Shown: in pieces, positions 1,852-53,516 of the stretch | How positions within the stretch are numbered: position 1 is the stretch's first letter | Layout: the number at the start of each line of letters is the position of its first letter | Assembly: GCA_016197225.1 (NCBI GenBank) | Contig: JACPWC010000031.1 | Location: 62,001 to 126,000, forward strand | From: Chloroflexota bacterium | GTDB taxonomy: Bacteria > Chloroflexota > Anaerolineae > Anaerolineales > VGOW01 | DNA: 64,000 nt | Direction: 5' to 3' | The notes under the pieces: model-generated | Database searches by the model: none | What the model was told of the DNA's origin: nothing | What the model saw: the letters and a program-made list of their open reading frames with translations, nothing else | Position numbers and translations under genes: made by a program

Positions 1852-1876
1852 CATTTTGACACTAAAAGGGACATGC

Positions 1877-3648: not shown

Positions 3649-5561
3649 AGATGGTAAGCGCCGCTTACCGCAACCCCGGCTTGGAGGCATACCAAAATGT
3701 TTATTTGGCAAGTGGCTGGCTCACGAATCTACCTGAAGAGCAGAACAGCTTGCGTAAAGTATACGAATTGCTGATTAACTTGGAGAAAGAAGCCAACGTC
3801 CGGGAAAAGGCTATTCAACTCATAGCCGAAACCTACAACAAACTTGACAAAGCGGCTATCCCTTCTAGTCTCAGGGTTCTCGTTGAAAAGGCTCATCAAT
3901 GTCTGGAGCAAAACACAAGCAAAGTCGAGGCGGTAGACGCGCTCCGGGCCGCTCTTCTTGAGGAAGATAAAGAGAATAATAGCACGCTTAACAATCTACC
4001 CGAGGCGAGCGCGCTCCTGGATTACTTCAAGCGACTTGAGAAACGTCAGGATGCAAAAATAACCAAACCACTCGAATTGGCAATTTCGACCAGATCCACA
4101 TTAGATATATCGTATAGCGATGAAAGAATCTCCGCCTCTGACGGAACCTATTCCTTGAGGTTATCAGTGCTCATCGAAAACAGGGATGACACATATGCGG
4201 CCAACGACTTGGTGATTCGGGACAACGGCCCTCTAATACCGCCCATTTTCAGGTTTGGTGGCAACGAAGAAAAGCGAGAGATAAAGTTGAGTGCTATCAA
4301 ACCTGGGGGAATGCTGGTTGGAAAGATCATTTACAAGTATGAAACAGATCAGGATCCAACCTGCCAACTTGTCACCAACTATGACTCGACTCCTCGGACT
4401 TTGATCGCGCCTGAGAAAACTATTGATGTGCCTTCTGAAAAATATCCTGTCCCCGAGCCCTATAAGTATGATTCGGTAGCCAAAAAGGTTAGCGAAGGTG
4501 GGGTCGTATTCCTGAAAGGCCCACCGTTTTCGGGGCGCACAAGAATTCTGGAAGCGATAAAGGAAGTCAAAGATGCACGAATTCACCGCTTGGGACGAAA
4601 AACCAGTCGTCAACACAGTGGCGATGAAGAGATCAAATCCTTACTGGGCTCAATACGGGATGCTAAGGGTCCAGGGGCAGTTTTAATCGACAATGCTGAG
4701 GTGTTGGAGGAAGAAGACGAGAATAACAAGGATGCTTTTATCTTGTATTTGTCGCGAGCAGTGCGAGAAGGGTGCATTGTCGTTATTGCGCAGGGCATCA
4801 ACGACACCTGGGATCGACCCATTAGAAACGCTCTGCCGGGCGCACTCGAGCGCGTGTCTTTCGAGTCAATATACGTTGGGCCTTGCAACGAAGGAGAGTG
4901 TCTTCAGTGGGTAGCTAAATATTTGCCCCGGGAAATGTCAACATTGGCGCGGAAATCAATGTGGCTCTTCTCCGGCGGCAGTCTTGGGGTGCTGGATGAA
5001 CTCTGCAGTGCCTTGAAGGACTCGCCCGAAAAAATATATACCGATCGTGTCAAAGATGTGCTGGTAGACGTAGCCCTTGAGTGTGGTCAAGCATGGTGTA
5101 ACGATGGTGTGCTTACGCCCATTGACCAACGGCTACTATCCGTGCTTGCAGGTGACGATTTTACCGACCAGAATAGTTGGACTACTGGCTTAAGTCGGCA
5201 GGATATTGCAGATAGCTCTCAATTCTCATTGGTTAATTCTCAGAGTTTGTGGCTAGAGGGTGGTTTATTGAACAAGCTTGCCTTGCAGTACCCGGATCAT
5301 TTTTCGCACACCGACAACACTCGCCATGAATACGTCCGAAAAATTACCGATCGACTGGAGCGACTTTGGCAACTAGGCGTATTTTGGTATGGAGAACAGT
5401 CGGAAAACAGGCAATACTCTACTAAGCCCAGGCGTGTATTTTGGCGGATGGGGTGGTTATATGTGTTCGCGCGTAGCATATATAAGATGCCGTTTGAGTC
5501 TGAGATTGAGGCGCGAAAATCCGGCGCTGGCAATACTAATGAGGTGGCTGATGAAATCTAA
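3510..5561 (+). CDS. STAND-like NTPase with beta-sandwich domain
   Basis: 683 residues from ATG 3510 (AAGGA lies 3 bases upstream; the true N-terminus may lie in the preceding frame). Residues 1-185 are helical; 185-305 form alternating beta strands like an Ig/CARDB-type sandwich; then a P-loop GPPFSGRT at 337-344 and a Walker B-like stretch LIDNAE near 392-397. The part after 480 is helical with a likely winged-helix region, as in STAND/NACHT-type signalling NTPases. No membrane segment is seen. It overlaps the protease gene by 11 bases (ATGAAATCTAA), implying translational coupling. It probably senses a signal and switches on the partner NTPase-protease, by analogy with STAND systems. Base use is AT-richer than the flanking housekeeping genes. 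Confidence 0.7.
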   Translation: MLGFKRKGSAQDLIKEIYDEVLLWGNNIGILEHLSKHDHYPISSIIEMVSAAYRNPGLEAYQNVYLASGWLTNLPEEQNSLRKVYELLINLEKEANVREKAIQLIAETYNKLDKAAIPSSLRVLVEKAHQCLEQNTSKVEAVDALRAALLEEDKENNSTLNNLPEASALLDYFKRLEKRQDAKITKPLELAISTRSTLDISYSDERISASDGTYSLRLSVLIENRDDTYAANDLVIRDNGPLIPPIFRFGGNEEKREIKLSAIKPGGMLVGKIIYKYETDQDPTCQLVTNYDSTPRTLIAPEKTIDVPSEKYPVPEPYKYDSVAKKVSEGGVVFLKGPPFSGRTRILEAIKEVKDARIHRLGRKTSRQHSGDEEIKSLLGSIRDAKGPGAVLIDNAEVLEEEDENNKDAFILYLSRAVREGCIVVIAQGINDTWDRPIRNALPGALERVSFESIYVGPCNEGECLQWVAKYLPREMSTLARKSMWLFSGGSLGVLDELCSALKDSPEKIYTDRVKDVLVDVALECGQAWCNDGVLTPIDQRLLSVLAGDDFTDQNSWTTGLSRQDIADSSQFSLVNSQSLWLEGGLLNKLALQYPDHFSHTDNTRHEYVRKITDRLERLWQLGVFWYGEQSENRQYSTKPRRVFWRMGWLYVFARSIYKMPFESEIEARKSGAGNTNEVADEI

Positions 5562-7242
5562 TATGTGGACGCTAAACGACTGCGAATGGGAATTTATCGG
5601 AGCACACAAAAATGGTTCGCGCTGTTCGCCAGTTGATGTTATTGTGGAGAAGCTGAAAAAGGATAACGACAAGACCCATTTTCACTTAATCGGATGCCCT
5701 TATATTGGCAAGTCATCTGTTGTCAGTTATGCTCTGACAAAAGTCAACCAAGAGAGCGGAACCGCTGGCCAGATAGGACTCACATGTGCTAAGAAGTGGT
5801 TGTTCTTTTACTTTGAAGAGCCTTCTGGGAAAGATGTCGACATTGTTGAAATTGCGAAGAGGAACCTTGTAGAATGGTGGTGTGACAATTTGGGCTCTGA
5901 AGAATACCAAAGCCTATGTAGCGACTTTGCTGCTAAGAATTGGGAGGGCGCGTTCGACTACAATAATCCTGGTTCTCCATGGTACCGATTTTTGATGAAT
6001 GCTCGCGAGCACAAACTGGTGTTTCTTTTCGAAATTAGTAATCAGAGCTCGTTTAACAATGTTATTAATCTTATCAATGGAACAAAGCTATTCAAAGAAA
6101 AGGTTAAGGATGGTACATGGCGGATTATTATCGAGACTCCCCTTGAGGTAAAGCTCAACCCAAGCGTTCTGCAAACCCGACAAATATCGATTGGCTTGCT
6201 TGATGAAGCAGAGGCCAGGGGTGTTGCTAATGTTGCTAGCACGCTTGTAAAAACTAAAGATGAGACTTCTCCCGACGATGCCACCAAGATCAAGATCGCG
6301 GAGGAGATTCTTAGATGGGCTGGATATCATCCCTATTTGTTGCGTTTAGTGTGCAAAGCTTTCAAGCGCTGGCCGTCGGAATACCACTTCATTGGTATAG
6401 AGGCCCAGTTGCTTAAATATGATGAAGAGCATAACGGGATACTCGGCGATATTGCAAAGAGGCTCGTTGATCAATGCCCAATCGGGACGAACTCTGAACT
6501 GATGCCTAGTGGAAAGACGGCAGAGGTTCTTAGGATATTTCCATCGTCTGAAAATGCTCAAAAGGCCTATATTCAAGCAAAACAAAAGCGAATGTTGGTT
6601 GCTGTGTATGATAAGGACAATAATCAAGAAGGAAATGGTCTCCTTATACACCGAGACGGCAAATGGTATGTCGCCACTTGCAAACATATTACTGACAAGA
6701 TTTTTGGGGCAGATGCGTCTCCGTCGAAAGACAAACTCATCAATATCAAATACAGATGGCCGCCTGATGAGATTGAGTACATTGACCTTGTTGCAGCTTT
6801 CGTCTATGTACACGCGGAGCATGACATTGCTATCCTGGCATGTACGGATCACAACATTTTTTCTGTGTTGCATGAGGATCTGTTGGCTAAAATACCCCGC
6901 ACAATTCTGACTTATGGAATGCCATTGGACATCAGATATCACTGGGAAACATTGTTTCACCACAATCAGGTCAAGTTTAAAGAGGGCGACGAAAATCTTA
7001 TCTATCAGAATGCAAACACGGATAATGGTTCCAGCGGGGCAGGTGTCTTCTGTGATGATGGGCTTGTTGGCATGCACTGGAGAGGCCCCGATCCGAGCAT
7101 GGGCCAAAAACCTGAGATTGCAACACCACCAGCCGAGAAAAACGCAATTGCTAAAATGGAAGGAGATGCACTTAGTGCGAAACTGATTTTGAAGCATCTT
7201 GATAAGCATCTTGATAAGCATCGTGCTACAGAAACTCGATAA
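5551..7242 (+). CDS. P-loop NTPase fused to trypsin-like serine protease
   Basis: Start ATG 5551 has GAGG 6 bases upstream and overlaps the preceding stop; 563 residues. The N-terminal half is a P-loop NTPase with GCPYIGKS at 48-55 and helical STAND-like sequence to about 340. The C-terminal domain (about 355-555) is a chymotrypsin-fold protease with a complete triad: His379 (ATCKH), Asp425 (EHDIAIL) and Ser495 (NGSSGAG, the GxSG motif). No signal peptide is present, so the protease should be cytoplasmic and probably held inactive until the NTPase part is triggered. The C-terminus ends in a short tandem KHLDKHLDKH encoded by 12-base repeats. Neighbouring NTPase and Trypco1-like genes support a conflict or programmed-death role, which is inference. 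Confidence 0.85.
   Translation: MKSNMWTLNDCEWEFIGAHKNGSRCSPVDVIVEKLKKDNDKTHFHLIGCPYIGKSSVVSYALTKVNQESGTAGQIGLTCAKKWLFFYFEEPSGKDVDIVEIAKRNLVEWWCDNLGSEEYQSLCSDFAAKNWEGAFDYNNPGSPWYRFLMNAREHKLVFLFEISNQSSFNNVINLINGTKLFKEKVKDGTWRIIIETPLEVKLNPSVLQTRQISIGLLDEAEARGVANVASTLVKTKDETSPDDATKIKIAEEILRWAGYHPYLLRLVCKAFKRWPSEYHFIGIEAQLLKYDEEHNGILGDIAKRLVDQCPIGTNSELMPSGKTAEVLRIFPSSENAQKAYIQAKQKRMLVAVYDKDNNQEGNGLLIHRDGKWYVATCKHITDKIFGADASPSKDKLINIKYRWPPDEIEYIDLVAAFVYVHAEHDIAILACTDHNIFSVLHEDLLAKIPRTILTYGMPLDIRYHWETLFHHNQVKFKEGDENLIYQNANTDNGSSGAGVFCDDGLVGMHWRGPDPSMGQKPEIATPPAEKNAIAKMEGDALSAKLILKHLDKHLDKHRATETR
7191..7221 (+). repeat. 12-base tandem repeat at 3' end of protease gene
   Basis: The unit AAGCATCTTGAT is present twice, followed by a partial third copy (AAGCATC). 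It is in frame and encodes KHLDKHLDKH near the C-terminus of the NTPase-protease. Slippage here would lengthen or shorten the tail by four residues without a frameshift. Confidence 0.85.
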
Positions 7243-7267
7243 AGCCAATTGTCTTACGGAGGTCGCT

Positions 7268-7621
7268 ATGCCTATGCTTGAATACAAATCAGGTGATGGA
7301 AATTCAATCTGGATTGAGGTGCCCCAACAGACATACTCTGTGCTTCAGTCGCGAAGCAATGAACCCCCGCCACCTCAACCACTAAAACCTGGTTTTTTAG
7401 ATGTAGTCAAAACCAACATCATCATTTTGCGCGAAAAAATTGATGAACTCGATCTGTTCCAGCGCCCTCGAGAAGTAGAGGTCGAGTTGAGTCTGAAATT
7501 CAATGCCGAAGCCGGAGTTTGGGGGCTGGCTGCGACCGGGGTGGAGTCGGGCTATGTTGTCAAGCTCAAGTGGGTTCATGAGGCCGAAAAACCGAAACTT
7601 GGTGACAAGCCAAAATCTTAG
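7268..7621 (+). CDS. Trypco1-like (trypsin-co-occurring domain) small protein
   Basis: ATG 7268 is preceded by GGAGG and gives 117 residues (MPMLEYKSGDGNSIWIEV); the longer frame from 7199 lacks a ribosome site and overlaps the protease gene. The protein is mostly beta: an N-terminal IWIEV strand, a Pro-rich linker, then a C-terminal segment VEVELSLKFNAEAGVWGL followed by a KLKWVHE strand. This matches my knowledge of Trypco1 (the CU044_2847-type family), small domains found beside trypsin-like peptidases in bacterial conflict loci. Its position 25 bases after a trypsin-like protease fits exactly. It may regulate, recruit or be cleaved by the protease; the biochemical role is not known to me. 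Confidence 0.75.
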   Translation: MPMLEYKSGDGNSIWIEVPQQTYSVLQSRSNEPPPPQPLKPGFLDVVKTNIIILREKIDELDLFQRPREVEVELSLKFNAEAGVWGLAATGVESGYVVKLKWVHEAEKPKLGDKPKS

Positions 7622-7627
7622 AGATTG

Positions 7628-8344
7628 ATGTTAGGCCTGCTTCTCCACCTGTTCATTGCCGGGCTAACCGCCTTAGGCTCAATCGTTGCCGGGCGTGGCA
7701 CCTCTTACAGAACCCGCCATGTCTTGGCGCATTTGCCTGGCATTTGGGGGGTAGTTGGGGCCTATTTGCTGCTTAGTTGGGTTGAACTGGCGCCGTGGGA
7801 GTTCCTCAACAGCGGTCTGCTCGACGGCTTGATGGGCGGATTGTTCGATGTCTTTCCGATTCTCTCCTTCATTATCAATAGCCGATGGATCGCATGGTTA
7901 GGGCCTGTCTTTAACACGCTGAGCCTGCTTGCCAACCTCAATGGTTTGCTGGCGGTGATGTTTGAACTCAATTTGGATTTTGCCCAACGTTTCATGCTGA
8001 TTTTGCCAGGGTTGGTTGCGCTCGCGTCACTCGTAGCGAGCATTACAGCGGCCTTCCTTCCGGTAGCATGGCGCAGCCGGCTTGGCTTCGCTCAAACCAT
8101 TTCTGCGGGCATGGCGCTGTTAGGGCTAATCTTCAATCTCAACGCCCTGGATGCTTGGGGCAGTCGTGGCCGGCTCGCCACCGGTCTGGTTGCTCTGCTC
8201 ACAAACGCCCAGGTTGGCATTGGCCCGTACTTCGCGATGTTAGGGTTGATTGGCTTGATGGTGTCTGGCCTCTGGCAAGCATCTCACTCGTCATCCGAAT
8301 CATCAGATGGTTCGGCAGGATTTAGCAGCGACTTATTTGAGTAA
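7628..8344 (+). CDS. Polytopic membrane protein of unknown function
   Basis: 238 residues from ATG 7628, 6 bases after the Trypco1-like gene, so almost certainly in the same operon. Hydropathy by eye gives about six membrane helices (for example LLLHLFIAGLTALGSIVAG at the N-terminus) with a Ser-rich cytoplasmic or external tail (SHSSSESSDGS). No family motif is recognised. Base use is somewhat GC-richer than the NTPase genes. As part of the island it could be the membrane target or effector of the protease system, or a separate passenger; nothing in the sequence decides this. Confidence 0.75.
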   Translation: MLGLLLHLFIAGLTALGSIVAGRGTSYRTRHVLAHLPGIWGVVGAYLLLSWVELAPWEFLNSGLLDGLMGGLFDVFPILSFIINSRWIAWLGPVFNTLSLLANLNGLLAVMFELNLDFAQRFMLILPGLVALASLVASITAAFLPVAWRSRLGFAQTISAGMALLGLIFNLNALDAWGSRGRLATGLVALLTNAQVGIGPYFAMLGLIGLMVSGLWQASHSSSESSDGSAGFSSDLFE

Positions 8345-8367
8345 TCATCGACTCTTCTCCAACCCAA

Positions 8368-9048
8368 ATGTCAGAGCCTGATTTTTCACCACCCCCCCGT
8401 TCAATTACACCTGGCCCAATCGAATTGGGATTGGCGGGCGTCAGCTTGCCGATCGTGATCGGCTTTCTAGGGCCGTGGGTTAGCCCACAATCCCCTACTT
8501 TTTATACAGAAAATCTCGGCTGGATGGATGGTTCGCTAGTGGCGCTGTTTCGGCCACTTTTAGAAGCACTGGGGTGTGTGACCGGCTGTAACTTCAGCAC
8601 GCTTATCAGCGCTTCGCCGTGGAGTGCTGTTGCCGCCGCACTGGCGCGCGGCGAGAGCCTGTTCGCCTGGCAATTCCTCATCGGGACGTTCCCTGTTACG
8701 CTGTGGTTATGGTCATTAGCTTTGTCTTATCCGTTGGCAGTGCTGCTGGTCCTGGTTCGGATAGTCATACACCGACACTCATTTGCCCGACTCTTGGATG
8801 CCTTCCTGGCTGGGGTATCGGGCGTCAGCCTGTTGCTCAGTATCTTTCAGTTCCACGCCCTCGACACTCTCGGATACTCCTCAGATTTTGTGTTGTGCCT
8901 GATTGCTACACTGGCAGGCAGTCATCAGGGTTGGGGGATAATGCTTGGATTTCTTGGACACTCAACTCTGGCAACTATAGCCATTATCGGCCTGGTGAGA
9001 GGAGGGCTTTCCCGCCAAAGCGGGATAGAAGCTCTTGACGAAATTTAA
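8368..9048 (+). CDS. Second polytopic membrane protein of unknown function
   Basis: 226 residues with a Pro-rich N-terminus (DFSPPPRSITPGP) and about five to six hydrophobic helices. It lies 23 bases after the previous membrane protein, has no strong ribosome site and is similar in size and style, so the pair may be distant paralogues or two subunits of one membrane complex. A conserved-looking Cys pair (CVTGC) sits in the loop around residues 71-75. I do not recognise a family. Confidence 0.7.
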   Translation: MSEPDFSPPPRSITPGPIELGLAGVSLPIVIGFLGPWVSPQSPTFYTENLGWMDGSLVALFRPLLEALGCVTGCNFSTLISASPWSAVAAALARGESLFAWQFLIGTFPVTLWLWSLALSYPLAVLLVLVRIVIHRHSFARLLDAFLAGVSGVSLLLSIFQFHALDTLGYSSDFVLCLIATLAGSHQGWGIMLGFLGHSTLATIAIIGLVRGGLSRQSGIEALDEI

Positions 9049-9143
9049 GCTTCAAGCCACCTCCCCTACGATCCCTTTCATTTCTTTGCAGTTGCTTTAT
9101 TACTTCTAAGTCATTTGTTGACGATATAACAGGATGATCCGTT

Positions 9144-10727
9144 ATGGCTCTCACTAAATTTATTGGGTTAGACCTTGGGAATACTTATGCCCGCCTGGCA
9201 TATACCTCTGGTATGGCAGGTATTCAGAAACCAGAGGACTTGACACCACCTCAATTGCAGGTTTTCGGGGTGCATTCTCGCACATATGTTGAATCGATCG
9301 CAAGAATAGACACTATGCCTCCGCAAACTGTGGATAGCGAGGAAGTTATTCGCTTAATAGAGGCCACGTCTGACATATTGCTCTGCGATCGCCCAATGTT
9401 AGGTGTTGAACAGCACGATTTGAATTCCCAACGGTCGATTACGGCAATTGGCGCAACGCTTGCGGAGCGCTTGCGAACACATTTTCGCGTCGTTGGTAAG
9501 CTTTCCAATGCATTCCAAATTTCGGCTGGAATTCCTGCAAACTGGCCAGCAAATAGCCAGGAAGCGCAATTGCTAGCAGCAAGTTTAAGCAGTGGATTCG
9601 GCCAAGTAATGCTTTATCCAGACGCGCTGGCAGCAGTCTTGTGTATGTTATACAAGGAAAATATACAATTATTAGATCAATCACAATCATGGCTTGTGAT
9701 GGATGTGGGTGGGGCAACTACACGCTTGACAATGGTGCATAAACCTCTTGGGGATGCCAACTTGGAAATTAAGAAATCGCTCTCATTAGTTTGGGGAGGC
9801 AATCACCTTGATGAACAACTTTATCGTGATTGGTGGCTTCCGGCTTATTGGAAAGATGCAAATGAACCTGATCCAAATCGCCGCAAGGCAATTTTATTGC
9901 TCCTAAAGGAGTTAAAAGAAAGCTTGTCAAAAACACGCAACACTGTACATTCTGACTTTCATCGTTTGGGCCTTGAAGAACCAATTCAATTGTCAACACA
10001 GATTTTTGAAGGCGTGTGTCGACCAGCTATTCAGGAGTTTTACGCTTTGCTTGAATCGAATCCGGTAATCGAGTTGGAGAAAGAACCTATTGAGCGCGTT
10101 GTTTTGATAGGTGGAAGCGCCCACTGGCCGTTTGTTTTGGAAGCTACTCAACAAAAATGGGGTCGCGATAAAGTTTTTCTCCCAGATCAACCCGATTTGG
10201 CCGTGGTCTTCGGCCTGTCTTTAGCCCAAAGTGGTTTTAAGCCGCCACTTACAAGGGTAAGCGAATCTGCCGTGAAAATTGAAAACACGACAGATATTGG
10301 CACAGTGCCTTCGAAAGAGGATGGTAAACCGCCACCTCTTTTGCCTCCCCCAGTTCCGCCAGAGACGTTAAGGCAAGATAGGCGCGCCAAAGCCAGGAAA
10401 ACAATCCGGCTTATGGTGCTTATCGGGGTTGGGGTTGCATTGGCACTGGTCTGGTTGCCTTTTGGGTCATGGCCATTTCTCATGGCAATTGAAGTTTATA
10501 TGATGCTTGAAATTGCGAAGAGCTATGGCTACAAATATACGGATGGTTTGATTATCCTACTTGTCATCGGGCTACTGGCCTTGTCTATTGGCCTTTCGAC
10601 CGCGCTTGCTCCTTTCACGGAGACGCTGTTTTGTTTGGTTAAACCGGTGATTGCCGGGCTTGTCATCTGGGGCATGGGTGAAGGCACCATTGCGATCCTT
10701 GATTGGGATTCAACCCGGCAACATTAA
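9144..10727 (+). CDS. Hsp70/actin-fold ATPase with C-terminal membrane domain
   Basis: 527 residues; ATG 9144 has AGGA 10 bases upstream. The ASKHA (Hsp70-actin-hexokinase) signatures are in order: phosphate 1 GLDLGNTYARLAY near 8-20, phosphate 2 VMDVGGATTR near 186, and the adenosine motif VLIGGSAHWP near 319. Unlike DnaK there is no beta-sandwich substrate domain. Instead a Pro-rich linker (PPPLLPPPVPPE) leads to three or four hydrophobic helices after residue 420, one carrying the motif YGYKYTDG, recalling DUF697-type membrane domains. The product is probably a membrane-anchored ATPase. It is followed 30 bases later by the HerA-like gene, so the two likely work together. Confidence 0.75.
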   Translation: MALTKFIGLDLGNTYARLAYTSGMAGIQKPEDLTPPQLQVFGVHSRTYVESIARIDTMPPQTVDSEEVIRLIEATSDILLCDRPMLGVEQHDLNSQRSITAIGATLAERLRTHFRVVGKLSNAFQISAGIPANWPANSQEAQLLAASLSSGFGQVMLYPDALAAVLCMLYKENIQLLDQSQSWLVMDVGGATTRLTMVHKPLGDANLEIKKSLSLVWGGNHLDEQLYRDWWLPAYWKDANEPDPNRRKAILLLLKELKESLSKTRNTVHSDFHRLGLEEPIQLSTQIFEGVCRPAIQEFYALLESNPVIELEKEPIERVVLIGGSAHWPFVLEATQQKWGRDKVFLPDQPDLAVVFGLSLAQSGFKPPLTRVSESAVKIENTTDIGTVPSKEDGKPPPLLPPPVPPETLRQDRRAKARKTIRLMVLIGVGVALALVWLPFGSWPFLMAIEVYMMLEIAKSYGYKYTDGLIILLVIGLLALSIGLSTALAPFTETLFCLVKPVIAGLVIWGMGEGTIAILDWDSTRQH

Positions 10728-10757
10728 ACCATGTCATTGGAAATAGGAGGCAGCACG

Positions 10758-13700
10758 ATGGCCGCAGATTCTGAAGAAACGACCTTCGCCCTTCAAACCT
10801 TAACCCCTGAAGCGGTTGATGAGCTTGTAAACCGGCGTTTACCGGCCTCCCTATTAGACACGCTGGAGCGGCGTTGGTACGAGAGCTTTGACATTCATAA
10901 ATATCAGATTCAGTCTACTACACCGGCAGCTTTGGAAGCAGAAACACGATTTTTGCAGATTTTTGAGGTTGCATATACTCAAGATGTAGCTCGTAGTTTC
11001 CACTTGGCAAACATGCAGAATGTTTTAAGTAGCCTGCGCGACGGGAGCCATTCGCTTGCTTATGTCGCTACAAGTAATGGGGAGCAGGTTAAACTGTTGA
11101 TGGGGGTACGGCGCTCTCGTCTGGATTCGATCACCCCAACAGACGAGTATATCAATGTTATGCACCGGGCTTTACGAAGCAATTATCCGGGGATTGTTTT
11201 GAGCCAGCAGGCGGACGAACAGTACCACGATGTCGATTTTGCCGATTATAAAGTGTGTATCCTTGACCCAATGCAAAAGAGTCATTACCTTGCTGCTATC
11301 ACTGGCATTCCGTCCTTGCGCCAACAGGAAAACTGGCAAGAAGCGTTTGGCCAAAGCATTGATCGGCTAGTAGATGCATTACGTGGGGAGGCCTATACAT
11401 TGCTGGTGTTGGCTGAGCCCATTTTGGAAGAGCGCGTGAATCACTTGATTAATCAGGCACGCTTAATTAGCGAACAAGTTCACGCACTTGTGCTTCAATC
11501 GCGTTCAATTTCCCGGAGCGAGACCGCGTCAAAACAAACCACTAGAGGGAAATCGGAACAATTTACTTTAGGGACTTCCCAGTTGATCTCAGCAATTTTG
11601 TCGGTGTCTGGAAGTGTCAGCAAATCTATATCCGACACGATTGGCTTCACGCGAGGCGTAAGCGCCTCGATAACGCAGGAAAGACTCGATAAAACGGCGC
11701 AGTTTTGCGAGCAGCTTTTAGAGCATTATATTAATCGACTGCAATCGGGACGAAGCTTGGGATTTTGGAACACGGGCGTCTTTCTGACAAGTGATGACCG
11801 AAATACGTTTTTGCGCGCTCAGTGGATTTCAAGAGCGCTTTTTTCTGGGCAGAACACTTATTTCGAACCTATTCGCATATTAAACTTAGAAAAGAATCTC
11901 GAAGTACGCAGAGCTCTCGGTAATTTGCGAATACCCGCCTTGAAAGCCATACCGGGCGAAAACCGTCAATCCATTGAACATCCGTTAGGCCAGGAATATC
12001 AAAGTCTGGGGACACCGCTAACTACCGACGAGTTATCAATACTGGTCAGTTTCCCAAACCGAGAAGTTCCAGGCTTGAAGTTGAAGCCAGTGGCAGATTT
12101 TAATCTCAATCCCCCCGCTATCAAGGGTACGGAGATTGGCTCATTGCTATATCGTGGAGAAAAGCTCCCATCACGGATCGCCATTTCTTCCAAAAGCTTG
12201 ACCCGGCACACATTCGTCACCGGCTTGACCGGCTCGGGGAAGACAAACACATGTCTGGCGTTGCTCGCAAATGGCCACCAAAGTCAACAACTGAAGTTCT
12301 TAGTTATCGATCCTGCCAAGACGGAATATCGCCTCTTATTGAACTCTCGAAGCCTTGGTAAAGATCTAGTGGTTTTCACGTTAAATGATGAATCGCTTGC
12401 ACCTTTTCGTCTCAATCCATTTGAGTTTGAACCAGATTTCCCGCTATTAACACATATAGACTTGTTGAAGGCGGTCTTCAATGCTGCGTTTCCAATGTAT
12501 GCCTCCATGCCTTATCTGCTGGAGGAAGCCATGTTGGCTGTTTACCAAGAGCGCGGGTGGAATATCACGGACTCGACCAATGATCGCTTCAAGCCAAACT
12601 CTGGCGAGGATCATCGCACCTATCTACCTAGACTGAGCGATTTGCGCGACAAGATTGATGAGGTCGTCAAAGGTAAGGGCTATGACGAGCGCATAGCTCG
12701 TGATCTTACAGCAGCGCTCAAGGCTCGCATTGGCAGTCTGTGTCAGGGCACCAAGGGTCTGATGTTGGACACTCAACGCTCGACACCGTTTCAGGCGCTG
12801 CTTGATCGCCCGGTCGTGCTAGAGTTGCGCCGAGTTGGAGACGACGACGAGAAGGCTTTTCTGATGGCGTTGCTATTTATTCGGCTATACGAAGCTTGTC
12901 AGACCCGAAAGATTAGCAACGATCTATGCCATGTGACCCTTATTGAAGAAGCGCACCGGCTTCTCCGGAACGTACCTATTTTAGTCTCATCCGAAATTGC
13001 CAACACCCGGGGCAAAGCGGTGGAAATGTTCGCTGATATGATGGCTGAGATGCGCGCTTACGGGGAAGGGTTTATCATAGTAGATCAGGTACCAAACAAA
13101 CTGGTCCCAGATGTGATTAAGGGATCTAATTTGAAGTTTGTACACCGTCTCTTAGCTGATGATGATCGACGTGCTGTTGGCAACGCCATGGGATTGACGT
13201 CGGCCCAAATTGAACATTTGTCCCGCCTCACCTTAGGTCAGGCGGTTGTACATAGCGAAGAACTAGGTGAGGCGTGTCTCGTTAAAATCGATTCAGTCGA
13301 GGAGCAGCTTATGAATCAACCATCAGGATCAGATCCACATGATAAATCGCACAAGACTGAGGACTTGCTTAGGCAGCACGCCAAAGATTTCGAAGATCAA
13401 CAGCCGCAGCCGAATGCCACCTCAAAACTGATAGCGTCAGAGCCGGAAGAACATAGACTGGAGAGCCGTTCAACGTCAGTCCCGGCCGTGTCGTCTTCGT
13501 TCGGGCCTGGCCATCTCCCATTTCCGTACTGTGTTGGTTGCCTTCCGCTTTGGAAAACAGGGCGTTGTTTATATGGCAAGCAGATCAATGCTTTGCGTTC
13601 TGCCAAAGCATGGCGAGAAAAATTCGAGGCACCAATGATCCAAGTCCTTGAAACCAGCGATGACCCTAATGATCTATGGTTACGCCTCGGCCAACTCGGA

Positions 13701-13880
13701 ACACAGTTAATCATCAACAACGAAATTCCTCTAGGTGAAGGTCAAGCCGAGGATGTAGTCTACTGTAACTTAGTCCACATAACAGTGGCCATTGGACATC
13801 ATCCCGCCGCACGATGGCGTCAGCGACTGGGCAACTACGTCAACATGCTTAGCAGTTTCCACCGGTCGTATCCTGAATGA
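10758..13880 (+). CDS. HerA/VirB4-type ATPase (DUF87-like)
   Basis: The start is set at ATG 10758, preceded by AGGAGG at 10745-10750; an upstream ATG at 10731 has no such site. 1040 residues. Residues 1-450 form an unrecognised helical region. The ATPase core carries Walker A GLTGSGKT at 489-496, a VIDPAK segment and Walker B VTLIEEAH near 726-733, typical of HerA/FtsK-clade hexameric translocases. The last 170 residues include a Cys cluster (YCVGC then C after 8 residues) and no known domain. HerA-type pumps move DNA or protein and commonly pair with nucleases or other effectors in defence loci. No nuclease is recognisable next door, so the effector may be in the N-terminal region or in the two following genes. 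Confidence 0.85.
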   Translation: MAADSEETTFALQTLTPEAVDELVNRRLPASLLDTLERRWYESFDIHKYQIQSTTPAALEAETRFLQIFEVAYTQDVARSFHLANMQNVLSSLRDGSHSLAYVATSNGEQVKLLMGVRRSRLDSITPTDEYINVMHRALRSNYPGIVLSQQADEQYHDVDFADYKVCILDPMQKSHYLAAITGIPSLRQQENWQEAFGQSIDRLVDALRGEAYTLLVLAEPILEERVNHLINQARLISEQVHALVLQSRSISRSETASKQTTRGKSEQFTLGTSQLISAILSVSGSVSKSISDTIGFTRGVSASITQERLDKTAQFCEQLLEHYINRLQSGRSLGFWNTGVFLTSDDRNTFLRAQWISRALFSGQNTYFEPIRILNLEKNLEVRRALGNLRIPALKAIPGENRQSIEHPLGQEYQSLGTPLTTDELSILVSFPNREVPGLKLKPVADFNLNPPAIKGTEIGSLLYRGEKLPSRIAISSKSLTRHTFVTGLTGSGKTNTCLALLANGHQSQQLKFLVIDPAKTEYRLLLNSRSLGKDLVVFTLNDESLAPFRLNPFEFEPDFPLLTHIDLLKAVFNAAFPMYASMPYLLEEAMLAVYQERGWNITDSTNDRFKPNSGEDHRTYLPRLSDLRDKIDEVVKGKGYDERIARDLTAALKARIGSLCQGTKGLMLDTQRSTPFQALLDRPVVLELRRVGDDDEKAFLMALLFIRLYEACQTRKISNDLCHVTLIEEAHRLLRNVPILVSSEIANTRGKAVEMFADMMAEMRAYGEGFIIVDQVPNKLVPDVIKGSNLKFVHRLLADDDRRAVGNAMGLTSAQIEHLSRLTLGQAVVHSEELGEACLVKIDSVEEQLMNQPSGSDPHDKSHKTEDLLRQHAKDFEDQQPQPNATSKLIASEPEEHRLESRSTSVPAVSSSFGPGHLPFPYCVGCLPLWKTGRCLYGKQINALRSAKAWREKFEAPMIQVLETSDDPNDLWLRLGQLGTQLIINNEIPLGEGQAEDVVYCNLVHITVAIGHHPAARWRQRLGNYVNMLSSFHRSYPE

Positions 13881-47007: not shown

Positions 47008-48321
47008 TTACTGGACGCAACTAAGGCCCATCAGGCCACGGTTGGAAGCGGGCAAGGGGTTAGTGAAGAGGCGTTCGAGGCTGGCCCCGATGTCGGCCTG
47101 GCCCTGGCCCAGCTGTCCGTCGAATTGTGGATTGAGCTTATCCAAAGAATGGGCGACGCCACCCATCAACAGGGCAATCTCGCGCACATTGAGGCCCGGC
47201 GCGGCGCTGTGAATGAGGGCGGCCTGCCCGGCCACAAACGGCGCCGCCATTGAAGTGCCGCTCCACCAGGCGTAACCATCTTTCGGGAATGTGCTGTAGA
47301 TCGATTCTCCCGGCGCGGCAAAATCAACGCCCCCGCTAAAATTTGCAAAGTCGGATTTTATAGAGCCTGGGCCGACAGCCGTCACCGAAAGCGCGCATTC
47401 ATTGGCGGCGGGGTATTGGGGCTCCTTGCTGTTCAAGTTGCCGGCGGCGGCCACCACCACCACGCCGTTGCGAGTGGCTGTTCGAATTACTTCCTTCAAC
47501 ATATCCGATTTTGATGGCGTGCCCAGGCTGAGGTTGATCACATTGGCGCCGTTGTGAATGGCGTACATGATCGCTTCGGCAACCGTGAAGACATCGCCGT
47601 TGCCGTCCGTATCCAGCACGCGCAACGGCATAATCTGCGCCTCGGGCGCAACCAGGTGAACAATGCCCGCTACGTGCGTGCCGTGCCCGGCGGCTTCATC
47701 GGCCACGCCATCGCCATCGCCGTCCAGGCCGCTGAAAACGTCGTCGGGCACATCATCGCCGTCAATAAAATCGTGGCGAGCGGCAGTGAAGCTGGCGGCC
47801 AGCGCCGGGTGATCGAGTTGCGCGCCGGTATCAATGACGGCGACCACAACGCCTGCGCCCCGGCTGATGACCTGTGCCTGCGCCAGGCCAAGCAGGTCGG
47901 CGGCATATTGACTGGAGTAAGGCGCGGCGTCCATGCCGCCCCAGCGCGAGATGCCGCGCGGGTCGGCTTCCGGCGCCTGGCCGAGAAAGTTCAGTTCGAC
48001 AAACGACAATCTCAGATCAAGCTCTATTGTCTCTGCTAATATCTGAGCGTCTTTGCCGGGCGGCGTTTGTAATAGATAGATGCCGTCAGCGGGAGCGAGT
48101 GATTTGAGAGTTGTGGTTTGGTAAGTGGCGTTGATGTCGTCAACAGTAGCGCCGGCAAGTGGATTAAGTTTGATGACGATTTCACCTGCTCTAAAACCGC
48201 CGCCCTCGGCGGCAACGACGCCCACCGGGCTGGCATGAACAAGGCCAAGCATTAAGGCAACAAAAATTGCGCTTCGTGACGCGACATTGATCAGATGCCG
48301 CATAATTGTTTGGGTTTTCAT
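47008..48321 (-). CDS. Secreted S8 subtilisin-like protease
   Basis: 437 residues with a signal peptide (FVALMLGLVHASPVGVVAAEG), a short pro-domain with KLNPLAG and LLQTPPG, and an S8 catalytic domain holding Asp in VIDTGAQLDH near 163, His in GHGTHVAG near 213 and Ser in SGTSMAAPF near 355. An Asp-rich insert DGDGDGVADEA before the His motif recalls calcium loops. ATG 48321 has GGGGAG upstream. It lies 219 bases after the CHAT gene, on the same strand; those bases hold no gene. Confidence 0.95.
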   Translation of the reverse strand: MKTQTIMRHLINVASRSAIFVALMLGLVHASPVGVVAAEGGGFRAGEIVIKLNPLAGATVDDINATYQTTTLKSLAPADGIYLLQTPPGKDAQILAETIELDLRLSFVELNFLGQAPEADPRGISRWGGMDAAPYSSQYAADLLGLAQAQVISRGAGVVVAVIDTGAQLDHPALAASFTAARHDFIDGDDVPDDVFSGLDGDGDGVADEAAGHGTHVAGIVHLVAPEAQIMPLRVLDTDGNGDVFTVAEAIMYAIHNGANVINLSLGTPSKSDMLKEVIRTATRNGVVVVAAAGNLNSKEPQYPAANECALSVTAVGPGSIKSDFANFSGGVDFAAPGESIYSTFPKDGYAWWSGTSMAAPFVAGQAALIHSAAPGLNVREIALLMGGVAHSLDKLNPQFDGQLGQGQADIGASLERLFTNPLPASNRGLMGLSCVQ

Positions 48322-48540
48322 TCAAACAGACTCCCCGCTGATTGATTTATGTTGCAACTTACTAAAATGTCGGCAATGCCCCCAAAAAGTTACGGTTCAG
48401 ACAGAATTTGCCTGAATAATTGCTTCCGGCTAAAGCGTCAGCCAGAACAATTTTTCTGCTGTTACTTCACCTCTTTCAATAGATATGCCTACATTTGAGC
48501 CGAAAAATACGTGGCAACCGCCGATTTGCAGGGGAGGCTT

Positions 48541-51429
48541 TTAGCGTTGCCCCACCAGAACAAATGGCGCCCAATAATAGGGGTGAGGGTGGACGGCTTT
48601 AAGGGAAAGTTGCGCGGCCCGCAGGGCCGCCGCCCGGCCTGTGCCACGCTTCAGTTGTTCGTACCAGTTCCCCATCAGAGTCATGGTGGTTTCGTCCTGC
48701 ACCAGCCACAGGCTAACGACCAGGGTTGAAGCGCCGGCGCCCAGGAACGCCCGCGTCAGGCCAATAATCTCGTCGCCGGCCATCACCTGGCTTCGCCCCG
48801 ACTCGCAGGCGCTCAACGTCACCAGCGCGCCGCTGAGTTCAAACTGCATGGCGTCAACGGCCATCAGCCAGCCATCGTGCAACCGTAACGAGGAAAACAT
48901 AGGGTTGTCGGCGCGAAAGAGACCATGACACGCCAGGTGCAGGACGCTGCACCCTGAGGCTTCGGCCTGAAGAGCGGCAAGTGTGGCCTCCGTCTCGCGA
49001 GTGCGAACCGTAACGCCGTCAAGGTGCTGGGCAACGGCTTTGGCTTCTGCCGCCGCCGCCGGGATCAGCGAGTCGGCTACCCCGAACACCAATGCTTTGC
49101 GGGCAGGCGGCGCAGTTCGTTTCTGGCATAGCGCCCACACCGTCAGGCTTGGCGCGTACGAGATTTCGAATCGGTCAATCAGGTATTGCTTGCCGTCGAA
49201 CAGAGCATGGAAGGGCACCTGGTGCAAAATGCCGTGAGGCACGACGACGAGTTTGGGCGGCGAGGCGGTTTCACCGGTCGAGCCGGCCCAGATCGTTTCC
49301 AGCGGCGCGATCAGTTCATCATAAAGCGCGGCCAGCACACGTTGGGTTGATTGCTCAAGCTGGGGCATATGCCGGGCCACAAAGCCCGGCCCGGCCCGGA
49401 AGCGTTCCCACTGCATCGCCAGCTTTTGCGCCAGCTTTTGCGCCGAACTGGCCAGGCCGAGGCGGCGCGCAACCTTGAGCTTGCCGCGAATGCCAACGAA
49501 AGCCAGAACTTCATCGCCGCAAATGTAGTAGGTGACCAAAATCGCGTCCGACGGAAGTTGTTGTTGCAACGCCTCAGGCGTGAGCGGGCCATCGAACTGC
49601 CCGGCTGGCGCGGGCGCGGCGGCGGTCACTTGCAGGCGCAGACGGCTGATCTCCTGCTCCAGCTTGACGGCGCGTCCGTAAAGTTCGGAGAGCGCGGCTT
49701 TGCCCTGACCGCTTAACAATTCGTTATAGACTGACTCTAGCCCGGCTTGCTTCAACTGAAGTTGAGCCGCCAGTTCGGGATCGGTGGGGATGGCCGCCCT
49801 GGCGTCCACCACGCCGGTGAGCAAGTCCACCAGCGCCCGCGACTTGGCGCGCTCGGCTACGGCAAAGGCCTGCCAGGTGTTTTCTTCGCCGCCGCGAGCC
49901 AGATGGAGTTGCACCAGGTCTTCGTAAGCGGCGGTCTTGTCGCGCACAAAAGAAGTGCGCGCCATTTCCTGCGAGAGGATGCCGCGCAATTGCTCGATCT
50001 CGTCCACTGCCGTCTGCAAAACTTTTTGCGCTTCCTGATCCTGGTTGAGCAGTAAATGCAGGTGGCCGAGCCGCTGGTTGAGGCGCGCTCGCAAGTGTGG
50101 CAGGGCCAGGCGGTCGGACAGTTTTCTGGCTTCGCGCAAGTGCGCCTGAGCATTGCCGGTGTTGGGCAGGAGCAGGTCGGCAATGCGAATGTGAGCATAC
50201 ACTTGTTGCACCGGCCAATCGTCGCCGGAGACGAGAGTCAACGCCCGGCGAGCCGTCGTCAGCGCCGCGCCGCGGTCGCCGCGCGCGGCCAGCAAAGAGG
50301 CCTGCTCCAGCAACACGCTCGAAAGCAGGGGCGTGTTGTCAGCGGCAGAAAACAGGCTCTCGGCCTGAGCCAAAATTTGCCCGGCTACTTCAAACTGCGA
50401 CTGGGCAATGAGGGCCGACCCCATGCCCCACAAGGCCCGCGCCCGGTCGTGGGTCATGCCGGCGGCCTGCAACAAACCGTCGGCTTCGCGATAAGCGGCC
50501 AAAGCCTCGGCGTACAAGTTGAGGGCCAGGTAAGCGTCGGCCATGTCGAGCAGGAGGACGTGCTTGTCGGCCAGCGCCTCCAGCGGCGCAAGCAGGCGGC
50601 GGGCGCGCTCAAAGGCCTCGAGGCCGCGCGTGTAGTTGCCCAACAAAAGATGAGCGTCGCCGATGTTGATCTGGGTTTGAGCGTGGAACAGGGCCAGGTC
50701 GGCTTCGGCAAAGATGGAAGCCGCCGCCTCGAAGGCGGCCAGCGCCTCGCGTCCCCGGCCCAGACTCAAAAGCACAATGCCCCGGTTGTTGCTAATGTCG
50801 CCGATTCGGTCGCTCATGTCGAGCGCGAGAAAGATCGCCTCGGCGGCGGCATAGGCGGCCAGCGCCTCGTCGTAGCGGCCCATTTGCTCGTAACACCGGC
50901 CCGTGTTCTGGTAAGCAGTTGCGGCCACCAGGCCGCGCTCCGGCGAAGCTTTGGCGGCCTCAGGTTGGCTGGCGGCTTCAAGGTTATCCAGAATCACTTT
51001 GCCAGCGTCGAGGGCTTCTTGATAGCGGCCTAACTCCTGAAGCACGTGAATGAGGCCGAGATTGGTGCGCAAGGCATCCAGCTCCTGCCCCAGCGCCTTG
51101 TAACCTTCGCGGGCGGCGGCGATCAGGTCAAGGGCGGCGTCGTATTCGGCGTTGATGGCGTGGGTTTGGGCGCGAATGTAGGTGGCGCGAGGAATGACGT
51201 TTGGGGCGTGGATGATTTGGGCGGCCTCGGCGCCGAGGTCGGCCAGCCGCCGCGCCTTGCCGGGGTCGCTTCCGGCGAGATAGGCGGCCTCATCCAACAA
51301 CTTCAATAGACCGCCGGCGTCCAACAAGTTCGCCGAACGCAAAAAGGCCGACTGTTGTTCCACAGTCGGCTGGGCGAGTAGACTCTCTATGATCTGCGGG
51401 CTTATGTCCGAGTCATCATCATCAGGCAT
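48541..51429 (-). CDS. TPR-CHAT caspase-like protease
   Basis: 962 residues: acidic start, about ten TPR-like helix pairs through residue 560, then a CHAT (caspase HetF-associated with TPRs) domain. The catalytic dyad is visible as His in LHLACHG near 833 and Cys in LSACESG near 873. CHAT enzymes are clan CD cysteine proteases; well-known relatives are separase and the CHAT subunit Csx29. It starts 2 bases after the anti-sigma-like gene, so the two are coupled. There is no CRISPR array in the window. Its likely substrate may be the neighbouring anti-sigma protein. Confidence 0.93.
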   Translation of the reverse strand: MPDDDDSDISPQIIESLLAQPTVEQQSAFLRSANLLDAGGLLKLLDEAAYLAGSDPGKARRLADLGAEAAQIIHAPNVIPRATYIRAQTHAINAEYDAALDLIAAAREGYKALGQELDALRTNLGLIHVLQELGRYQEALDAGKVILDNLEAASQPEAAKASPERGLVAATAYQNTGRCYEQMGRYDEALAAYAAAEAIFLALDMSDRIGDISNNRGIVLLSLGRGREALAAFEAAASIFAEADLALFHAQTQINIGDAHLLLGNYTRGLEAFERARRLLAPLEALADKHVLLLDMADAYLALNLYAEALAAYREADGLLQAAGMTHDRARALWGMGSALIAQSQFEVAGQILAQAESLFSAADNTPLLSSVLLEQASLLAARGDRGAALTTARRALTLVSGDDWPVQQVYAHIRIADLLLPNTGNAQAHLREARKLSDRLALPHLRARLNQRLGHLHLLLNQDQEAQKVLQTAVDEIEQLRGILSQEMARTSFVRDKTAAYEDLVQLHLARGGEENTWQAFAVAERAKSRALVDLLTGVVDARAAIPTDPELAAQLQLKQAGLESVYNELLSGQGKAALSELYGRAVKLEQEISRLRLQVTAAAPAPAGQFDGPLTPEALQQQLPSDAILVTYYICGDEVLAFVGIRGKLKVARRLGLASSAQKLAQKLAMQWERFRAGPGFVARHMPQLEQSTQRVLAALYDELIAPLETIWAGSTGETASPPKLVVVPHGILHQVPFHALFDGKQYLIDRFEISYAPSLTVWALCQKRTAPPARKALVFGVADSLIPAAAAEAKAVAQHLDGVTVRTRETEATLAALQAEASGCSVLHLACHGLFRADNPMFSSLRLHDGWLMAVDAMQFELSGALVTLSACESGRSQVMAGDEIIGLTRAFLGAGASTLVVSLWLVQDETTMTLMGNWYEQLKRGTGRAAALRAAQLSLKAVHPHPYYWAPFVLVGQR

Positions 51430-51431
51430 TG

Positions 51432-52061
51432 CTACAAATTGAGTTCGACCGGCGCGATCAGAATTTCGGCCTGCTCGGCGCTTAAGACAATTTCGTATAC
51501 GCCGGGCGGGATGGCCTCGAAGGCAAACTCGCCTAGTTCGTCGGTGGTGGTCAGGCCAAACTCGGCGGCCTCACGCAGGAGTTGAACGCTGAAGTTGCCG
51601 CTGGCGGCCTGCTTGCCGGGGAAAACCTGGCCGGTGATGTCGAGATGCTTGTCGTAGAGGCGAGGCTGGACATTTAGAGCAATGTCGGCGATCTCGGTTG
51701 AATAGATGAGTTGCCGTTGCGAGCCTTGAGCGCCGGCGGAGCGCAAACCGGTGGCGGCAAATTGCGCTTCGCTGTCGAGGGTGAGTGAGGCAATTAGGCG
51801 CTGGAAGAAGCTAGGCCCGCGTTGTTCACGCGCCAGGGTTTCAAAGCGCCGAATGAGTTCGGCCCTCACTTCGGGCGGCGGGGCGGCCAGGGCGGTGGCG
51901 GCGCTGGCTGTGGCAAAGGCTCGTAACCAGTTCAGGTCCGCCTGGGTGGCTTCGTCGGCGGTTGCCACTTGCCTGGCAACGGTGGCGGCTTCCTCTTCAG
52001 AAAGGCGGCCATCCACCCAGTCTACCAGGCGCTCAAAGTTAAGGGCATCGGAATTTGGCAT
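51432..52061 (-). CDS. Anti-sigma-like protein with carboxypeptidase-regulatory-like domain
   Basis: ATG 52061 (MPNSDALNFERL) has GGAG upstream; ATG 52088 is the alternative. 209 residues: an N-terminal part with the anti-sigma pattern LVDWVDGRLSEEEAATVARQV, a variable linker, and a C-terminal beta domain (GQVFPGKQAASGNFSVQLL, FEAIPPGVYEIVL) like carboxypeptidase regulatory or CarbopepD_reg domains. No membrane segment is visible. Between the sigma gene and the CHAT protease, it probably binds the sigma factor. Confidence 0.75.
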   Translation of the reverse strand: MPNSDALNFERLVDWVDGRLSEEEAATVARQVATADEATQADLNWLRAFATASAATALAAPPPEVRAELIRRFETLAREQRGPSFFQRLIASLTLDSEAQFAATGLRSAGAQGSQRQLIYSTEIADIALNVQPRLYDKHLDITGQVFPGKQAASGNFSVQLLREAAEFGLTTTDELGEFAFEAIPPGVYEIVLSAEQAEILIAPVELNL

Positions 52062-52160
52062 GTTGTCTCCGGCAAAGGTGTCAGTCATTTGGTGTAGTCA
52101 GTGATAAATGCCCATTCCCAGGCTGGAAAATACACCCAGATGCCGCCGCCTCAAGGTGGG

Positions 52161-52733
52161 TTACGACTCCTGTAGAACCTGCTTCAGCCGTTCCAGGCAC
52201 CGGGCGCGGGTGGGGCCGACACTGCCGACCGGAATGCCCAGGCGGCTGGCGATTTCGGCGTACGAAGGCTCCTGCGAGTCGAAGTAGAGGGCCAGCAGAA
52301 TCATCCGGCAACGCTCGTTGAGCTGGGTTAATCCCTGATCCACCCATTGCGTCATTTCCCACCGGTCAATTGGATCGTTGCCGGGCTTGCCCAGCGCCGA
52401 GACCGTTTCGACAAAATCATCGTCGTCGGTGGTAACTTCTCGGTTAGCCCGCCGGAACAAGCGCCAGGTGTGCCGCCGGGCCACCGTGGTGAGCCACGCG
52501 CCGAGATGGCTGTCTTCGCGCAAATCATTTAGCCGTTGCATGAGGATGGTGAACGTAAGTTGAGTCACGTCGGCGGCGTCTTCGCGGCTGAAGCCATAAT
52601 GAAGTGGAACGGAAAATACCAGGCGCTCATATTTTTGCAGGACGCGCTCCCAGGCCCCAACATTGCCTTTGCGACAAGCCAGGATCAGTTCCCGATCCGA
52701 GTCGGTTAGAGTGTCAGAAGAATTCTCGATCAC
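52161..52733 (-). CDS. ECF-type RNA polymerase sigma factor
   Basis: 190 residues with sigma region 2 (RLVFSVPLHYGFSREDAADVTQ, FTILMQRLNDL) and region 4 helix-turn-helix (PSYAEIASRLGIPVGSVGPTRARCLERL). ECF factors direct polymerase to stress or envelope promoters. It is followed by the anti-sigma-like and CHAT genes on the same strand. No matching ECF promoter could be identified confidently upstream. Confidence 0.93.
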   Translation of the reverse strand: MIENSSDTLTDSDRELILACRKGNVGAWERVLQKYERLVFSVPLHYGFSREDAADVTQLTFTILMQRLNDLREDSHLGAWLTTVARRHTWRLFRRANREVTTDDDDFVETVSALGKPGNDPIDRWEMTQWVDQGLTQLNERCRMILLALYFDSQEPSYAEIASRLGIPVGSVGPTRARCLERLKQVLQES

Positions 52734-52839
52734 GTGTTTGGGTAGCCAGGCCTTTCACCTGGGCGGCTGGCGGTTCATTGTAACGGCTAATTGAAGGCTG
52801 TCAAATCAAAGCGTAAAGGAAGGAACGAAGCGGCGGCTA

Positions 52840-52982: not shown

Positions 52983-53516
52983 ATGTTGAAGTTCATTCGG
53001 AATGTAGGGGTTATAACGCTGGTGGCTGTGTTGACGGTGGTGGGCATTGGCGCTCTGGCAAATACTCTGCCGGCGGCGGCATCACAAACCCAACAGGATA
53101 CAACAGTTGATCACGGCGGGCGTGGCTTGTGCGGGCAGGCGGGCTTGGAGGCCGCCGCCAAGACATTGGGCCTGACGGCGGATGAGTTGACCACCCAGTT
53201 GTGGGCCGGCGAGAGCCTGGCCAACCTGGCAGACAAAGCCGGCGTTAAGTTGCAGGATGTTCAGGACGCCGTCACCGCCGCTTGCCAGGAGGCAACACGC
53301 AGCTCGATTGAGCAAGCCGTGACCGATGGCACGCTGACTCGCGACCATGCCGATTGGTTGTTGGAGGGCCTTGAGAAAGGTTACTGGGGCGGCGACGGTG
53401 GCTTTGGGTTTGGCCCGCGCGGCGGTGGTTTCGGCGGACGGGGCGGCTTCGGCCAACACCCGTTCAACCACACGATTCCGCCGACCAGCACGCCCACCAG
53501 CGGTAGTGGCGCCTGA
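52983..53516 (+). CDS. Secreted helical protein with Gly-rich tail
   Basis: 177 residues; ATG 52983 has GGAGG. Signal peptide (VGVITLVAVLTVVGIGALANTLPAAA), then a helical domain with the repeated theme LGLTADELTTQLWAGESLANLADKAGV and TLTRDHADWLLEGL. This motif is seen in small extracellular Actinobacteria/Chloroflexota proteins of unknown function (YckD/DUF2680-like). The last 45 residues are Gly/Phe-rich and end in a Thr/Pro tail. A perfect palindrome follows the stop. Confidence 0.8.
   Translation: MLKFIRNVGVITLVAVLTVVGIGALANTLPAAASQTQQDTTVDHGGRGLCGQAGLEAAAKTLGLTADELTTQLWAGESLANLADKAGVKLQDVQDAVTAACQEATRSSIEQAVTDGTLTRDHADWLLEGLEKGYWGGDGGFGFGPRGGGFGGRGGFGQHPFNHTIPPTSTPTSGSGA

Follow-up and report, generated by a model that had tools for sequence, protein, structure and literature searches.

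What brings the gene of an ECF sigma factor into one row with the genes of an anti-sigma-like protein, a TPR-CHAT protease and a subtilase, and could the protease be the device that sets the sigma factor free? The question is raised by a locus in the window, the stretch of 64,000 nt of Chloroflexota DNA that was analysed in this work. CHAT proteases are common, and few have a known substrate; the array described here points to a protein that a CHAT probably cuts, to the probable place of the cut and to sigma-dependent transcription as an easy readout. The initial annotation of the DNA had described the locus as a four-gene array, and all four open reading frames are indeed found on the minus strand, preceded by a promoter-like site:

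52777..52804, minus strand: sigma70-type promoter-like site, TTGACA-16-TACAAT, 11 of 12 consensus matches, about 44 bases upstream of the sigma GTG
52161..52733, minus strand: gene of the ECF sigma factor with regions 2 and 4; 190 aa, GTG start
51432..52088, minus strand: gene of the soluble anti-sigma-like protein; 218 aa if read from the first ATG (52088) and 209 aa if read from 52061, the likelier start
48541..51429, minus strand: TPR-CHAT protease gene, 962 aa; CHAT 1e-61, TPR_12 4.8e-21 (Pfam)
48547..49344, minus strand: CHAT domain, residues 696-961; His835 (48925-48927), Cys875 (48805-48807)
47008..48321, minus strand: S8 subtilase gene, predicted exported, with prodomain, 437 aa; Peptidase_S8 2.7e-42

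The Genes of the Array

By the coordinates of the reading frames, the order of transcription is sigma, anti-sigma-like, TPR-CHAT and S8. The anti-sigma-like and CHAT genes are separated by 2 bases (51430-51431), just as had been annotated, and the CHAT and S8 genes by 219 bases. The gap of 99 bases that had been placed between the sigma and anti-sigma-like genes holds if the latter starts at Met10 (base 52061); counted from the first ATG (52088), it is 72 bases. Met10, the position at which the Rubrobacteraceae homologue begins, is the likelier start. The promoter-like site occupies the position expected of an operon promoter and, by its match to the consensus, is a candidate for that role. 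Such a near-consensus, housekeeping-type promoter would give the operon a basal level of expression, which is what a switch armed in advance would require. Divergent from the sigma gene, on the plus strand of the window (52983-53516), lies the gene of a small exported Gly-rich protein.

The domain matches identify the first gene product as an ECF sigma factor, with regions 2 and 4 of the sigma70-ECF superfamily. It matches Sigma70_r2 (1.4e-9) and Sigma70_r4_2 (1.1e-6) of Pfam, both above the cut-off, and the NCBIfam model TIGR02937 at 77.2 bits against a cut-off of 42.9. The third gene product is, by its CHAT domain and His-Cys dyad, a CHAT protease, and several TPR models of Pfam match it besides the CHAT domain. 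The dyad, which had been noticed at the outset, consists of His835 (in HLACHG) and Cys875 (in SACES); it is intact here and invariant across the alignment of array CHATs. This invariance speaks against the idea that the CHAT protein is a non-cutting scaffold, the TPRs of which bind the anti-sigma protein in a partner switch. TPR repeats are present in the protein, and TPR domains bind proteins, but with both dyad residues kept we consider a purely binding role very improbable.

The fourth gene encodes an S8 subtilase that looks exported, in keeping with the secreted protease annotated on the same strand: the motifs VIDTG, GHGTH and GTSMA are all intact, a hydrophobic segment is found at the N-terminus, and the prodomain is of the fervidolysin type (1.7e-4, Pfam). 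A reading of the array as an anti-phage defence system was tried and set aside, as PADLOC gave no match for the sigma, anti-sigma-like and CHAT proteins and matched the S8 protein to subtilase models only.

The Middle Protein as a Probable Anti-Sigma Factor

The second gene product, referred to here as the middle protein, is central to the question. Its AlphaFold2 model contains helices at residues 18-25, 31-42, 46-64 and 72-89, a loop modelled with little confidence at 111-120 and a beta-sandwich at 125-216, which correspond to three features of the gene:

51822..52037, minus strand: predicted four-helix anti-sigma domain, residues 18-89; zinc-binding cysteines absent in the window copy
51729..51758, minus strand: inter-domain loop, residues 111-120, mean pLDDT 63 (AlphaFold2); candidate cleavage site
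51441..51716, minus strand: CarboxypepD_reg-type beta-sandwich, not a peptidase, residues 125-216; PF13620 3.4e-5, below the cut-off

Profile comparisons make it very probable that the middle protein is a soluble anti-sigma factor. A profile of the whole family matches RsiW and DdvA in the PDB, and a profile of the N-terminal domain, compared with all PDB sequences, matches DdvA (8.5e-8), RsiW (1.8e-6), 3hug_B (1.2e-4) and ChrR (3.9e-4). With 3hug_B, which we take to be the anti-sigma factor RslA, all four of these matches are anti-sigma factors. Fold searches with the model of the whole protein returned generic beta-sandwiches only, and the N-terminal domain was therefore modelled alone. When this isolated helical domain was compared by Foldseek with the PDB (350,542 chains), RskA ranked first, with ChrR and RsiW among the next, and chains of these three proteins made up 7 of the 16 rows, no single match being significant. 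The fold ranking agrees with the profile matches, and the two together place the N-terminal domain, as far as sequence and predicted fold can tell, in the anti-sigma domain superfamily. The anti-sigma-like nature first given to the second gene is supported, for a protein that is predicted to be soluble.

The zinc motif HxxxCxxC is kept in several relatives (L026, L027, L032, L039 and others), and one relative reaches 36.4 bits with the zf-HC2 model (cut-off 22.2) and also matches the RsrA and ChrR models. By sequence comparison, the motif is absent from the window copy and from its Rubrobacter and actinobacterial kin, which places the window protein outside the zinc type (zf-HC2). Shortened forms are found as well. 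In five CHAT arrays (L028, L030, L035, L044 and L065), the middle homologue keeps just the last helix and the linker, without the zinc-type part, and in most Geodermatophilaceae loci (L166-L176) it is a protein of about 150 aa that lacks the zinc-type anti-sigma part and keeps the linker arginine. The predicted four-helix anti-sigma domain is what the window protein shares with ChrR, RsiW and RskA. It differs from them in being soluble, with the CarboxypepD_reg-type sandwich at the place where they have a second domain or a membrane part, and in lacking the zinc cysteines.

A Conserved Unit across Several Phyla

When the anti-sigma-like protein was used as the query against 301 genomes of the same phylum, it turned up in 11 of them. 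The complete order of sigma, anti-sigma-like, CHAT and S8 genes is present in L024, L025, L027, L028 and L032; the other loci end at contig edges or miss one gene, and in L026 and L033 the sigma and anti-sigma genes are found without a CHAT gene nearby. In a broader scan, the CHAT alignment was run against one genome per species, 84,980 species in all, and the best 80 loci were kept. An anti-sigma-like gene lies within about 2.2 kb in 16 of the 17 top-scoring CHATs by profile rank, and among ranks 29-80 of these 80 loci in only one, the Chloroflexota locus L068, which has an array of the second type described below. Relatives with CHAT genes but without these neighbours, which the initial annotation had named as evidence against its reading, are therefore not the rule among close relatives; distant CHATs are almost never paired, and the pairing belongs to a part of the CHAT family rather than to CHATs in general. 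The tree of the CHAT domain gives a similar picture: the label “has anti-sigma-like gene” requires 6 changes, compared to 29 when shuffled, and none of 500 shuffles was as low, on a quick tree in which many forks are weak and some of the rows labelled “none” are short contigs.

The full set of four genes is found together in at least four phyla, namely Chloroflexota, Actinomycetota (Rubrobacter and Modestobacter), Acidobacteriota (several) and Planctomycetota (one planctomycete, L056). Rubrivivax (L065) and Meiothermus (L047) have the anti-sigma-like, CHAT and S8 genes, and the profile recognised no sigma gene in the stretch examined. The order in Acidobacteriota is often sigma, CHAT, anti-sigma-like and S8, so the association of the genes survives rearrangement. 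Distances calculated pairwise for each of the four proteins over 19 arrays, compared without a species control, are correlated with one another (r 0.76-0.86). Around the relatives, only these four families were found to recur so widely on the coding strand, generic transporters apart, and the array is therefore no accidental grouping of genes. These observations support the view that the CHAT, anti-sigma and sigma genes form a conserved unit across several phyla.

Relation to ECF54, Craspase and DdvA

It should be pointed out that the gene neighbourhood itself is not new, a point missed by the initial annotation. According to PMC8999054, which cites Casas-Pastor et al. 2021, the sigma factors of group ECF54 have a carboxypeptidase, a subtilase and a CHAT protein as their neighbours, the model member is from Geodermatophilus amargosae, and their activity was proposed to be controlled by proteolysis, with no anti-sigma factor taking part. 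The window array has the same carboxypeptidase(-regulatory), subtilase and CHAT neighbours, and the family of the model member, the Geodermatophilaceae, carries the array, with that of Modestobacter among the nearest to the window's. On this synteny and kinship, rather than on a group profile, the window sigma factor can be called ECF54-like. What is added here is the spread of the array to other phyla.

The difference concerns the anti-sigma factor. ECF54 was described without one, while the partner in the window has an anti-sigma domain by sequence. In the ECF54-type array, an anti-sigma factor seems to be present in disguise: the one Pfam match of the middle protein is a weak one to the CarboxypepD_reg sandwich, presumably the source of the label “carboxypeptidase” in the literature, and the cysteines missing from the window copy and its actinobacterial kin could explain why the factor went unrecognised. 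An anti-sigma factor in the array would correct the idea, as published in that source, of ECF54 acting without one. The same considerations bear on the proposal made there for this neighbourhood, which in the present terms would have the CHAT protein degrade or clip the sigma factor itself and in this way hold it inactive, a true anti-sigma factor being absent. Having been published for the very same set of genes, it deserves a hearing; the “carboxypeptidase”, however, is a CarboxypepD_reg sandwich joined to a predicted anti-sigma domain, and a subtilase with an export signal would be unable to reach a cytoplasmic sigma factor. We consider it quite unlikely for the window array.

A closer functional parallel may be found in type III-E CRISPR, where the TPR-CHAT protease Csx29 cuts Csx30, a protein that binds and inhibits an ECF-like sigma factor (PMC10028731). 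By analogy, the window array would share with this Craspase system (Csx29-Csx30-CASP-sigma) the TPR-CHAT protease, the ECF-like sigma factor and an inhibitor with a sigma-binding N-terminal part. Unlike Craspase, the window has no CRISPR array: neither repeated 24-mers nor an Rfam CRISPR match was found in its 64,000 nt. The window CHAT scores 68.9 bits with the profile of full-length Csx29, against a cut-off of 300, and matches over the CHAT domain only. A CRISPR link of the array was rejected on the lack of repeats and of an Rfam match, and the Cas7-11 and CRISPR neighbours of Csx29 were not found in the window. The source genome does have two RAMP-family genes of type III-like CRISPR on contig C75 (L177 and L178; frames of 544 and 283 aa), a contig other than that of the array. 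The CRISPR-independent version of the Craspase switch that had been put forward for this locus is supported in part, by the soluble anti-sigma-like partner and by the conservation of the unit in several phyla; the cut itself and the sensing of a signal by the TPRs would be its putative steps.

The third comparison is with Myxococcus xanthus, in which DdvA was shown genetically to be the cognate anti-sigma factor of DdvS, and DdvS is active once DdvA is inactivated (PMC4374960). Where the two align, the sequence of the DdvA entry 8rlz is the same as that at the N-terminal end of 8rot_B, a “CHAT domain-containing protein” of 991 aa, which in turn matches the profile of the array CHATs at 837-973 (E 0.0011). 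Thus, an anti-sigma domain and a CHAT share one chain elsewhere, and these matches suggest that DdvA forms the N-terminal part of a CHAT protein, in which nature has fused the two. The DdvS-DdvA pair resembles the window array in having an ECF sigma factor and a zinc-type anti-sigma domain that matches the window's and is joined to a CHAT protein; it differs in that the two are in one chain, while the window has two genes. Our search, limited to open papers, found no report of cleavage of DdvA by its own CHAT.

A Candidate Cut Site and a Proposed Protease-Controlled Switch

If the CHAT protease does cut the middle protein, the inter-domain loop is where we would look. Gly114 and Arg116, in a Gly-x-Arg motif at bases 51741-51749, are identical in 31 of 31 aligned homologues and are the sole residues of the linker so conserved. 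Judged by eye, the arginine is also present in the short middle proteins of the five Geodermatophilaceae loci that were read. Of the four residues invariant across the whole middle protein, two sit in this loop. Being conserved yet outside the folded core, the loop looks like a protease recognition site, and on its sequence and modelled position we put it forward as the candidate site of a CHAT cut. The conservation could instead serve folding or binding rather than cutting.

The same loop helps to weigh the opposite role for CHAT, that of an output. Here the anti-sigma protein would sense a ligand through its sandwich and change its conformation, in a ChrR-like manner, and the sigma factor would then transcribe CHAT and the subtilase as stress or death effectors. 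The second domain is indeed a beta-sandwich, a fold often used in ligand binding; the sigma and anti-sigma pairs of L026 and L033 do without CHAT, and the subtilase looks exported. An output, however, would hardly be expected to place half of the invariant residues of the anti-sigma protein in its inter-domain loop, to sit between the sigma and anti-sigma genes as the Acidobacteriota CHAT does, or to be united with the anti-sigma domain in one chain as in DdvA. We regard such an arrangement as unlikely, if worth keeping in mind.

In the reading that we prefer, the array is a sigma switch that works in the cytoplasm under the control of a protease. Expression from the housekeeping-type promoter would supply the ECF sigma factor, which would be kept inactive by the soluble anti-sigma protein, composed of the four-helix domain and the beta-sandwich. 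The TPR part of the CHAT protein would perceive a signal or a partner, and the caspase-like CHAT domain would cut the anti-sigma protein, most likely at the invariant Gly-x-Arg loop. The cut would free or destabilise the anti-sigma domain and release the sigma factor, which would then transcribe its targets, plausibly including the exported subtilase. The DdvA-CHAT fusion and the Csx29-Csx30-sigma precedent, taken together, make release of the ECF sigma factor through CHAT cleavage of the anti-sigma protein the best explanation of the array, and one that we hold to be somewhat more probable than not. The fuller claim is a widespread, CRISPR-independent counterpart of Csx29-Csx30-sigma, in which a TPR-CHAT protease cuts a sandwich-type anti-sigma factor at the arginine of Gly-x-Arg and frees an ECF sigma factor; we make it tentatively, as falling somewhat short of an even chance. 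If it is true, the CRISPR-linked sigma switch of Craspase is a single instance of a more general route from caspases to transcription.

A promoter motif shared with the subtilase, which the initial annotation had suggested looking for, did not rise above shuffled controls in two underpowered comparisons. In a gapped-word search of the regions that precede 30 sigma genes, the top count was 6 versus 5 in the shuffles, and the upstream regions of sigma and subtilase genes had no more in common than the shuffles (15 versus 18.0). Besides this negative outcome, the middle proteins that lack the zinc-type part, the loci L026 and L033 with their sigma and anti-sigma pairs but no CHAT, and the lack of significance of each single fold match count against the preferred reading.

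Kinship of the Array and Neighbouring Observations

The closest array to that of the window, for all four proteins, is from an uncultured Rubrobacteraceae, with identities of 60% for sigma, 50% for the anti-sigma-like protein, 56% for CHAT and 51% for S8. Two Rubrobacter arrays come next and then one from Modestobacter, a member of the Geodermatophilaceae whose sigma factor is 48% identical to the window's; arrays of the window's own phylum are at about 30-40%. Since the Actinomycetota arrays are closer than those of its own phylum, transfer of the whole array between the window lineage and Actinomycetota would be the simplest reading.

The source genome has a second, divergent array on contig C66 (L005, 5426-11613), with sigma-like (TIGR02937, 1e-6), anti-sigma-like, CHAT and S8 genes, the anti-sigma-like protein having two HxxxCxxC motifs. 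In fifteen genomes of the same phylum (L132-L146), an anti-sigma-like gene of this second type lies directly beside CHAT, and the four sequences that were read over their whole length have two HxxxCxxC motifs; no sigma gene was recognised in the short stretch examined. The second array and these pairs suggest that the pairing of anti-sigma-like and CHAT genes is broader than the window's branch.

Elsewhere in the window, on the plus strand at 847-13880, genes for a phosphoesterase, a vWA protein, NTPases, an Hsp70-like protein and a HerA-like ATPase are clustered, and one of the NTPases seemingly carries a trypsin-like part. Judged by eye only, this cluster looks like a conflict system.
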